Shown: piece by piece, positions 46,543-49,246 of the stretch
How the letters are laid out: each line of letters begins with the position of its first letter
Numbering within the stretch: position 1 is the stretch's first letter
Notes under the pieces: model-generated
The model's input: only the letters and a program-made list of their open reading frames with translations
Database searches by the model: none
Told to the model about the DNA's origin: nothing
Made by a program: the position numbers and the translations under genes
DNA from: a bacterium
GTDB lineage: Bacteria; Patescibacteriota; Saccharimonadia; Saccharimonadales; UBA4665
Length of the DNA stretch: 64,000 nucleotides
Assembly (NCBI GenBank): GCA_021848145.1
Contig: JAJZMX010000002.1
Location: forward strand, 1 to 64,000
Direction of reading: 5' to 3'

Positions 46543-47130
46543 TTAGGCTAGTGAAATGTATAGCCAATTGCTATCACTATACCTTCTGACACTTGAAAGA
46601 AGTCCATCTGCCTCTTGTTGACTACGCAAAGCCTCACGTATCTTGGTCGAAGATACGCTGGGAGCATAGCTCTTTATTAAATACATGGTCTTTGGCTGTC
46701 TTGGAAGTTCCTTAATCCATTGATCAACCATTGGCTCATCACCAGCCCTAATACCAACAACCAGTTCAGAGTATTTGAGCAAGGTATCGACTTTTGGCCA
46801 ATTTTTTATGTTTTCAAGGTTATCTGACCCCATTAAGAACACAAGGCTTGCGCCAAAGAACTGATTCCTAAGTTTAGGCAGGGTCTTCTCTACACTAAAA
46901 CTAACATCACTGTTTTCAATTAGACCAAAACTGTTATATGGGCGTATAGCCTGCCTTACCATCGCTACACGATGTCCAAAATGAGCAATGTCTGTTTTAT
47001 TTGGCCTATAGCGTTCTGGCATAAAAAATACCTTATCTAAGTTTGCCTTCTTAACAGACTGCAGAGCAAAGGCTATGTGTCCTGCATGTACTGGATTAAA
47101 AGTGCCACTGTATATACCTACCCTTTTCAT
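46543..47130 (-). CDS. nadD: Nicotinate-nucleotide adenylyltransferase NadD
   Basis: 195 residues from ATG 47130. 'VGIYSGTFNPVHAGHIAFAL' holds the HxGH nucleotidyltransferase motif, 'FFMPERYRPNK' and 'LVFLMGSDNLENIKNWPK' the substrate region and 'SVSSTKIREAL' the ISSTxIR motif. It makes deamido-NAD. Its ATG overlaps the stop of the zinc-ribbon gene (ATGA), so they are translationally coupled. Confidence 0.92.
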   Translation of the reverse strand: MKRVGIYSGTFNPVHAGHIAFALQSVKKANLDKVFFMPERYRPNKTDIAHFGHRVAMVRQAIRPYNSFGLIENSDVSFSVEKTLPKLRNQFFGASLVFLMGSDNLENIKNWPKVDTLLKYSELVVGIRAGDEPMVDQWIKELPRQPKTMYLIKSYAPSVSSTKIREALRSQQEADGLLSSVRRYSDSNWLYISLA

Positions 47131-47306
47131 GATTCCTGTGGGCCTCCCTCGCAACATTTAGTAGGCAACTTGCATTCTGGACAAACATAGTGACCGTGTA
47201 TTGGCATTAGCGGGTAGGCACCGCAATTATCACAGATAAGGTAAGGAGAGCAAACAGGATTGGTTTCTTCATCTAATTTAATGTCTTGGTCAGAATCTTT
47301 ACCCAT
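47127..47306 (-). CDS. Small zinc-ribbon protein, 59 aa
   Basis: ATG 47306 to TGA 47127. Cys19, Cys25/Cys28 ('CDNCGAYP'), Cys42/Cys45 ('CPECK') and Cys51/Cys52 give at least one zinc ribbon. The stop overlaps the nadD start. TAGAAT (47313-47318, minus strand) ends six bases before the ATG, another leaderless start. Such proteins often bind nucleic acid; function unknown. Confidence 0.75.
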   Translation of the reverse strand: MGKDSDQDIKLDEETNPVCSPYLICDNCGAYPLMPIHGHYVCPECKLPTKCCEGGPQES

Positions 47307-47351: not shown

Positions 47352-48560
47352 TTAAGCTTTATATGTCTTGGACTTATTGCACTTAGCGCAAGTTATGATT
47401 TTTTCAGTTCCTTTGTATTCTATAGTGGCGTCAACTCCGGGTTTATGGCACAAAGGACAAGTGACACACTTCATGACTTCGGTTTTGCTACTACTTGAGC
47501 CAAATATTGCTCCGTGAATATCGGCCGCAGATTCGCCGAGAACCGAATCATCAAAACCGATGGACCCGCCACACCCAAACAACACCTTCCTTGAAACGAC
47601 AAACTCTCGGTATGCTTGCCAGACTTCAGTTGATAGCTGTCTTTGAATGTATACATTGCTGACACCAGATCGCTTTAAGTTTACGCCTTCATTTCTGTCT
47701 AACCTCTTCTTCATCAATGCCCATACGCCATAAATATGCCTCTTTGTAGCTTTTTCTAGCTCAACATAGTCATTCCTTCCCGCGGCAATTGCTTCCAGGC
47801 CATTTAGCAGATATTCAACTAAATCACTGTTAGAAGAAACGGTCTTCCATGCGTTTTCATAACGCTCGGCTTCACTCCTGCCCGCATAAAACCTGCCCCC
47901 ATATTTAGTGGACAGCGTTAAATCGTGAACCTCTACTAGATCGTCAAGGCTGAGAGCATCATTTTTTGCTAAGGCATCCATTATGCTATACATTGCGTCT
48001 TCATCACTCTTATCTAGTGTTTGTGATTCCAAACAGATTGACCCGTCTTCAAGACAAGAGGCTTGGTAAACATAGCCCATTTTGCGTTCAGGGTTCATCC
48101 CACGGCTAGCTAGAAAACCGGGGCCATATTTTTGTTCAATATCTTCTGGATAGGCATTAATCCAGATATGGCGTTCACCAGGAATAAGCTTTTGTATTTG
48201 TTCAAAATGGTAGCGGTCTTTTTCTGCCCAGCCAACCAAGAATTCACATCTAGAATCTATACTGGCATCATGCCTTGCAGCATCAAGCCCAGCTTCTATC
48301 ATTTCAGCGTATGGCCGCCATTTAGCTTCGTTAAAATAAGCCAGCTCACCGTTTACACGCTTGAGCTTAAAACTAGTCCTCGAGGCCCGGTCTATACCTT
48401 CGGTTATAAAGCTAAGTTGTTCGTTGCATACCTGTTCCCTAGTTTCAGGCAAAACATAACCATAATTTTCCAAGTCAAACTTTAGGGAATTAACATTAGC
48501 AAGAATATTAAATGAGTGGTAGTTCTCTTTTTCTATTTTTTTTTGTGTTAAAGTTTCCAT
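47352..48560 (-). CDS. B12-riboswitch-controlled protein of unknown function
   Basis: 402 residues from ATG 48560. No signal peptide or membrane helix. The first ~300 residues are mixed, with 'ERHIWINAYPEDIEQKYGPG', 'GYVYQASCLEDGSICLE' and 'YGGRFYAGRSEAERYENAWK'; later 'RKVLFGCGGSIGFDD' and a C-terminal zinc ribbon with Cys365, Cys368, Cys371 and Cys391, Cys394. I do not recognise the family. The riboswitch upstream implies a role connected with cobalamin supply or with a B12-independent alternative route. The ATG at 48602 is rejected: it lies in the terminator stem. Confidence 0.7.
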   Translation of the reverse strand: METLTQKKIEKENYHSFNILANVNSLKFDLENYGYVLPETREQVCNEQLSFITEGIDRASRTSFKLKRVNGELAYFNEAKWRPYAEMIEAGLDAARHDASIDSRCEFLVGWAEKDRYHFEQIQKLIPGERHIWINAYPEDIEQKYGPGFLASRGMNPERKMGYVYQASCLEDGSICLESQTLDKSDEDAMYSIMDALAKNDALSLDDLVEVHDLTLSTKYGGRFYAGRSEAERYENAWKTVSSNSDLVEYLLNGLEAIAAGRNDYVELEKATKRHIYGVWALMKKRLDRNEGVNLKRSGVSNVYIQRQLSTEVWQAYREFVVSRKVLFGCGGSIGFDDSVLGESAADIHGAIFGSSSSKTEVMKCVTCPLCHKPGVDATIEYKGTEKIITCAKCNKSKTYKA

Positions 48561-48573
48561 TTGAATAAAAAAT

Positions 48574-48742
48574 GCCCTTGCTCTTTCGGGGGCAAGGGCC
48601 ATTAATTTCTTAATACCAATGCTCTTGCTCGAGAGACTTAAACTACCGTATCTGGCTTACTAATATTTAGCTTACAGTTGCGGCACAGCCCAGGAATTAC
48701 ACCTGGTTCCGGTATTTGTTCTGTTAAAGTGTCTCTAGTGTA
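48574..48742 (-). promoter_or_regulatory. Cobalamin riboswitch with terminator platform
   Basis: Minus strand. Core motifs: GGAACCAGGTGTAATTCC, CTGTGCCGCAACTGTAAGC and the B12-box GCCAGATAC (48656-48648). P1 pairs AGAGAC (48736-48731) with GTCTCT (48637-48632). Expression platform: GCCCTTGC/GCAAGGGC hairpin (48599-48592 with 48581-48574) followed by ATTTTTTATT, a terminator. GCAAGAGC (48628-48621) can pair with GCCCTTGC (48599-48592) as antiterminator. A TATGGT (48754-48749) fits a start near 48742. Confidence 0.9.
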
Positions 48743-48784
48743 GCACAAACCATACCCACACTACATATAGTATTAATTACCGCG

Positions 48785-49246
48785 TTAAGTAGACAACCGC
48801 CCTTTTAGCTCTTTAAGGCGAGGACTGAAACTCTGAGCAGCACCCTCAAGCCCCAACACCTTCAGGGCACCTACTAATACTATTAAGTTGTCTACTTCTT
48901 GAGCCATCGGGGCGGCAGACTGTTCCACTTCCTTAAATAAGTGTTCGATCTTTTCTACCAGCCATTTCTCTTCTCCAGGCGAAACTTCATTGGTTAAAAG
49001 GGTTTTAGATGGGTTAGAGTCCACTACTTCTAATGATCTGGCTGAGTGGTCACGCTTAATTAGATGTCCCCGCTTAATGAGGCTGTTAACATGAAGTGCC
49101 ACAGTAGCAACTGAAGTGTAGTTTAGCCCATTCATTATTTCTCTATAGCTAGGACTATATCCGTGTTCAGCTATGAAAGCACTAATGAAGCTAAGCAGTT
49201 CCCTCTGCTTCTTGGTTGGCCTAACCTGGTTTTTATTTTCGTTCAT
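48785..49246 (-). CDS. LexA-like DNA-binding protein without peptidase
   Basis: 153 residues. Residues about 8-75 match the LexA N-terminal winged helix: 'RPTKKQRELLSFISAFIAEH', 'GYSPSYREIM', 'SVATVALHVNSLIKRGHL' and 'HSARSLEVV'. The S24-type Ser-Lys peptidase domain is absent; the C-terminal half is helical. It starts two bases after the alpha-2-macroglobulin-like gene, so they are coupled. It could be an autonomous regulator; SOS cleavage is not possible without the peptidase. Confidence 0.82.
   Translation of the reverse strand: MNENKNQVRPTKKQRELLSFISAFIAEHGYSPSYREIMNGLNYTSVATVALHVNSLIKRGHLIKRDHSARSLEVVDSNPSKTLLTNEVSPGEEKWLVEKIEHLFKEVEQSAAPMAQEVDNLIVLVGALKVLGLEGAAQSFSPRLKELKGRLST

Follow-up and report, generated by a model that had tools for sequence, protein, structure and literature searches.

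A cobalamin riboswitch paired with hypervariable zinc-ribbon proteins of an undescribed family at one fixed locus in Saccharibacteria

What does a cobalamin (B12) riboswitch control when the gene behind it encodes a protein that resembles nothing known? This question is raised by a locus in a stretch of 64,000 nucleotides from a Saccharimonadales genome (henceforth the window), where a first-pass annotation had described a riboswitch core with its B12 box and P1 arms, followed by a terminator with a competing antiterminator and the ATG of a 402-residue zinc-ribbon protein of unknown family (henceforth X), and had proposed for X an unrecognised B12-related function. The structural part of this description held in every element, as detailed below. 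The proposed function is supported, while its exact nature (salvage, binding or substitution) is not shown.

Searching with the Rfam Cobalamin model (RF00174) revealed a match on the minus strand at 48743-48624 that scores 34.5 bits, above the gathering score of 31.5 that marks membership in the family (E 4.7e-5, computed over the whole window), and the same Rfam search returned no other match in the 950-kb genome. The core GCCGCAACUGU is intact at 48684-48674, as is the B12 box (GCCAGAUAC, also given as GCCAGATAC) at 48648..48656 (-), and the P1/P2 arms can be read in the sequence at 48735-48723 and 48643-48633 (-). The aptamer as a whole (48624..48743, minus strand) is compact and misses the large peripheral domain. 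A custom model with 20 base pairs (R1), made from 30 of the Rfam-matched relatives' sequences, gives 114 bits at 48754-48629, the window itself being among the training sequences; across 30 sequences, 13 of the 20 aptamer pairs show compensatory (double) changes, as the pairing of RF00174 demands. The Rfam score, conservation and covariation together rule out a chance riboswitch. Another leader match, L10, was spurious (17.9 bits against a cut-off of 44). We conclude that the RNA belongs to the known family RF00174, which shares a clan with AdoCbl-II (RF01689): it is alike in core motifs, covarying pairing and terminator-coupled control, but differs in lacking the large peripheral domain and in having a target gene outside the known B12 families. 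Its ligand and the direction of control are inferred, with no binding data.

The expression platform expected of a riboswitch is also present. Folding of the nascent strand yields an antiterminator hairpin, GCAAG...CUUGC, at 48592..48628 (-), which takes up the 5' arm of a strong intrinsic terminator at 48567..48599 (-), so that the two compete. The terminator comprises an 8-bp GC-rich stem (48599-48592/48581-48574) and a U6 tract (48572-48567), its last base lying 7 nt ahead of the X start codon. Aptamer, terminator and antiterminator are thus evident in the sequence; because the overlap of the extended P1 with the antiterminator is small, the route of switching stays plausible but unproven. 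A simple scan found no sigma-70 promoter. X itself occupies 47352..48560 (-) and starts at the ATG at 48560, giving 402 residues, whereas a 416-residue reading in the open reading frame list would start within the terminator.

Is the pairing of riboswitch and X peculiar to this genome? The Rfam search matched the riboswitch in 46 of 61 related genomes, and R1 added nine slots (G020, G026, G038, G041, G043, G046, G050, G057 and G060), bringing the combined count to 55 of 61. Among the remaining six, a contig end cuts inside X in G005, G017 is fragmented, the slot could not be located in G055, and no riboswitch was seen in the slot examined in G047, G052 and G054. A terminator follows the aptamer at a distance of at most 110 nt in 27 of 47 loci, versus 8 of 900 random windows from the same loci, and in nearly every locus an X gene of 340-550 codons sits directly downstream of the riboswitch. 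A LexA-like gene adjoins in 27 of the 47 loci and nadD is a same-strand neighbour in 35. The pairing of riboswitch and X is therefore conserved, and at a constant position, in nearly all related Saccharibacteria examined. The two outcomes that would have refuted the first-pass annotation, a covariance score below threshold and homologues without the riboswitch, did not materialize. Several other families of the order gave no RF00174 match in the Rfam search, the only one applied there (R1 was not), and we found no report of a cobalamin riboswitch in Saccharibacteria in the literature searched, which left out most subscription journals.

In the window, the conserved upstream neighbour is a LexA-like DNA-binding protein (48785..49246, minus strand; PF01726). 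Between X and nadD lies a small Cys-rich ORF of 59 codons, recognized by its sequence, ICDNCG...CPECKLPTKCCEGGPQ (47127..47306, minus strand), for which a Pfam search gave no match; ORFs of similar size occupy this position in several members of the genus. Its TGA overlaps the ATG of nadD (ATGA), which encodes a NadD-like nucleotidyltransferase (46543..47130, minus strand; PF01467) and, judging from the sequence, is probably the final gene of the transcription unit. X, the small ORF and nadD are all co-directional. The slot of L181 (G054), devoid of X, contains the LexA-like gene, about 1.5 kb without a long ORF, and then a PIN-like ORF.

What kind of protein is X? Searches of Pfam, NCBIfam and PHROGs (the last run with the A2 relatives) and a sequence search of the PDB gave no match. 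No curated family or solved structure ties X to known B12 transport, salvage or enzyme families, in which it therefore cannot be placed, and a corrinoid-binding signature was not found. X thus represents a target family undescribed in the libraries searched, as the first-pass annotation had held. It is soluble and predicted to be cytosolic, without membrane segment or signal peptide (by hydropathy only), and is present in single copy. Its C-terminus is a C..C/C..C zinc ribbon (Cys365/368/371 and Cys391/394; 47355..47483, minus strand, from sequence and model), and an invariant cysteine, Cys330 (codon at 47571..47573, minus strand; alignment A1), lies in a G-C-G-G motif before the linker. A small-residue-Cys-[GPSA] motif together with a C-terminal zinc ribbon is found in all 53 complete X proteins checked, three of which have a shortened second knuckle; very few residues are invariant in the alignment. 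An AlphaFold model built on six sequences, from six loci of the close-relative alignment, reached a pLDDT of 69 and a pTM of 0.63 and shows an alpha/beta domain, a helical domain, a low-confidence linker and the zinc ribbon. Foldseek found no match to the whole fold (best E 0.11); the ribbon hit Elf1-like ribbons with a probability of 0.94 but an E of 0.37, a weak likeness in shape and cysteine spacing that leaves the rest of X unrelated.

Three further candidates were discarded. Recurrent weak structure matches to the LuxR ligand domain (GAF-like; probability about 0.2, TM below 0.4) are not evidence for such a fold. The ribbon looks by eye like the tail of the ribonucleotide reductase NrdJ, but the profile search was not significant (best E 1.8). 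Membership in a genome-wide zinc-ribbon tag family is ruled out, as X and its ribbon each occur only once in the genome.

The X proteins are hypervariable. Within the genus of the window, median pairwise identity is 28% for X versus 65% for the LexA-like protein and 62% for NadD. One and the same ribbon module is found on bodies of different X types that have no detectable mutual similarity, the window's own ribbon type is carried by a different body in L156, and several non-similar ribbon types occur among X proteins. Profile comparison of X subfamilies (hhalign) gave probabilities of only 1.4 and 2.5, so profiles leave a single family unproven; the shared motif order and the small-Cys/zinc-ribbon tail are merely suggestive of one. 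The slot holds clearly different types of X, apparently by replacement and by the swapping of modules at a constant chromosomal position. This variability and the exchangeable ribbons go beyond what the first-pass annotation could see.

A B12-switched gene calls for a look at B12 demand and supply. The sole ribonucleotide reductase of the genome is the class II, B12-dependent NrdJ (NF005122, 1376 bits; PF08471), whose gene adjoins that of NrdR. The adenosyltransferase BtuR is encoded in 55 of the 61 relatives, this genome included, which rules out X as a missing adenosyltransferase. NrdJ and BtuR thus constitute a B12 demand that X probably serves, X being unrelated to either. We found no known B12 importer in the genome on searching for FecCD, DUF6580 and DUF4430; ECF modules were outside the search and an unrecognised importer remains possible. 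DUF4430, a C-terminal domain common to transcobalamins (PMC4350170), and the membrane protein DUF6580 co-occur in four relatives, and their linkage to X is evident in the sequence: G030 has riboswitch, DUF4430, DUF6580, X and nadD in one run, and the X slot of G026 holds riboswitch, DUF4430 and DUF6580 with no X. G047, the sole relative shown to encode only the class I NrdAB, lacks BtuR as well as riboswitch and X in the slot, a correlation that rests on a single genome and a single event. G052 and G054 are counter-examples, having kept a reductase and BtuR while the slot examined shows neither riboswitch nor X; G055 kept a reductase (class not determined) and lacks BtuR and riboswitch. The slot of G047 (L170, L140) is filled by ABC-transporter and UppP-like genes. 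In G223, riboswitch, a soluble protein, an NrdR-like ORF and a class II reductase are consecutive.

In other Patescibacteria, an RF00174-type riboswitch leads genes for DUF4430, for DUF6580 and for an alpha-toroid protein that matches transcobalamin weakly (PF01122, E 0.0045). Such genes stand behind a cobalamin riboswitch in L230, L229 and L141 (a weak one in L141), which we read, from the sequence, as a bacterial transcobalamin-like uptake set, uptake being presumed. These genes resemble X in riboswitch and, in some relatives, in chromosomal slot or operon, and are presumed to acquire corrinoid; their products are recognized by Pfam and are exported or located in the membrane, whereas X has neither signal peptide nor membrane segment and matches nothing. 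Elsewhere (L217, L218 and L221 in G141, G215 and G226, and also L214 in G155) a cobalamin riboswitch precedes the gene for a soluble protein of 720-860 residues, largely of low complexity and ending in -AA, followed by a Clp-type AAA+ ATPase, which in most cases is joined by a type IV coupling-protein-like ATPase. Going by their riboswitches, these Clp clusters would be B12-switched, to an unknown purpose. In L222 (G234) and L226 (G245), a riboswitch-led soluble Cys-Gly/zinc-ribbon protein lies beside divergent PrgI-, TraC- and VirB4-like genes.

On balance, and by a modest margin, we favor a model in which B12 shortage turns on X and X acts in acquiring or handling corrinoid for NrdJ; there is no biochemical evidence for it. 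With corrinoid plentiful, the aptamer would bind it and the extended P1 would block the antiterminator, whereupon the terminator would form and X would not be made. Under corrinoid shortage the antiterminator would form instead and X would be transcribed, perhaps along with the 59-codon ORF and nadD; by helping to acquire or handle corrinoid, X would then allow BtuR to produce the adenosylcobalamin that NrdJ requires. Several facts reinforce the B12 link: NrdJ is the sole reductase, BtuR is present, operon and slot are common to X and DUF4430/DUF6580, and X is lost in the genome with a class I reductase. That X contacts a corrinoid is inferred, and such variability and swapping of modules would be unusual in a protein that carries a cofactor inside the cell.

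Two alternatives are possible, and their strengths overlap that of the favored model where they are sub-cases of it. X might be a host-facing effector: B12 shortage would signal poor or absent host supply, and X would be exported without a Sec signal, for instance through a type IV secretion-like system, to act on the host, its types diversifying by an arms race. This would fit the switching of X types at a fixed locus amid far better conserved neighbours and the zinc-ribbon module common to dissimilar bodies, as well as the three VirB4-like and three coupling-protein-like matches in the genome, the riboswitch-led proteins beside PrgI/TraC/VirB4-like genes in G234 and G245, and those ahead of Clp-type and coupling-protein-like ATPases in G141, G215 and G226. 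However, X has no known export signal and nothing shows its export, no secretion gene adjoins it in the window, homology to X is not shown for the long acidic proteins that the Clp clusters encode, and cysteine zinc ribbons suggest the cytosol. Alternatively, as a sub-case of the favored model, X could be an internal corrinoid chaperone or NrdJ-maintenance factor, with the invariant cysteine acting as thiolate and the ribbon docking on NrdJ or BtuR. Its cytosolic character by sequence, the single Cys motif conserved across all X proteins, its tie to genomes with class II reductase and BtuR in the cases examined, and the gene order in G223 support this idea; sequence turnover far above that of the neighbours speaks against it, and the ribbon does not qualify as a class II reductase Cys tail (best E 1.8, as above). 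Action inside the cell and at the host thus both remain compatible with the data: diversification and type IV secretion neighbours elsewhere argue for the latter, while for an internal carrier or NrdJ helper the cysteines fit and the turnover does not.

Other explanations appear very unlikely. B12-independent isozymes are a classical target of cobalamin riboswitches, and X could stand in for NrdJ activity when B12 is absent, but X is similar to no reductase or radical enzyme, is hypervariable with hardly an invariant residue, and is missing from G047, which switched to a class I reductase. Equally improbable is that nadD is the regulated gene that matters and X a passenger. The co-directional arrangement with its ATGA overlap, and nadD following in 35 of 47 loci, would allow this, but in the 12 loci where nadD is absent or distant the riboswitch still mostly precedes X, and no nadD was seen after the riboswitch in other Patescibacteria. 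Finally, X could be a variable island gene, anti-phage or otherwise, that has acquired a B12 switch, since types that change at a constant position recall a diversity hotspot. There is little to sustain this: PADLOC gave nothing for the window protein and two models weakly matching one other member each (best E 4.8e-4), which falls short of an assignment, and the single conserved regulatory RNA and the G030 operon with B12 uptake-like genes argue against it.

A bolder extension of the favored model, which we regard as no more than a possibility, is that the locus encodes a B12-switched set of interchangeable zinc-ribbon proteins that take corrinoid from hosts. X would then be a vitamin-acquisition protein of a new kind, with effector-like diversification, in place of a conventional importer and with parallels next to type IV secretion genes elsewhere in the Patescibacteria. 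Epibionts such as these depend on B12 to make DNA precursors, and this genome has none of the known importers searched for. With X, a new protein family joins the targets of a well-studied riboswitch, and by marking a gene that would be turned on when B12 runs out, the riboswitch may offer an entry to how Patescibacteria acquire vitamins from their hosts.
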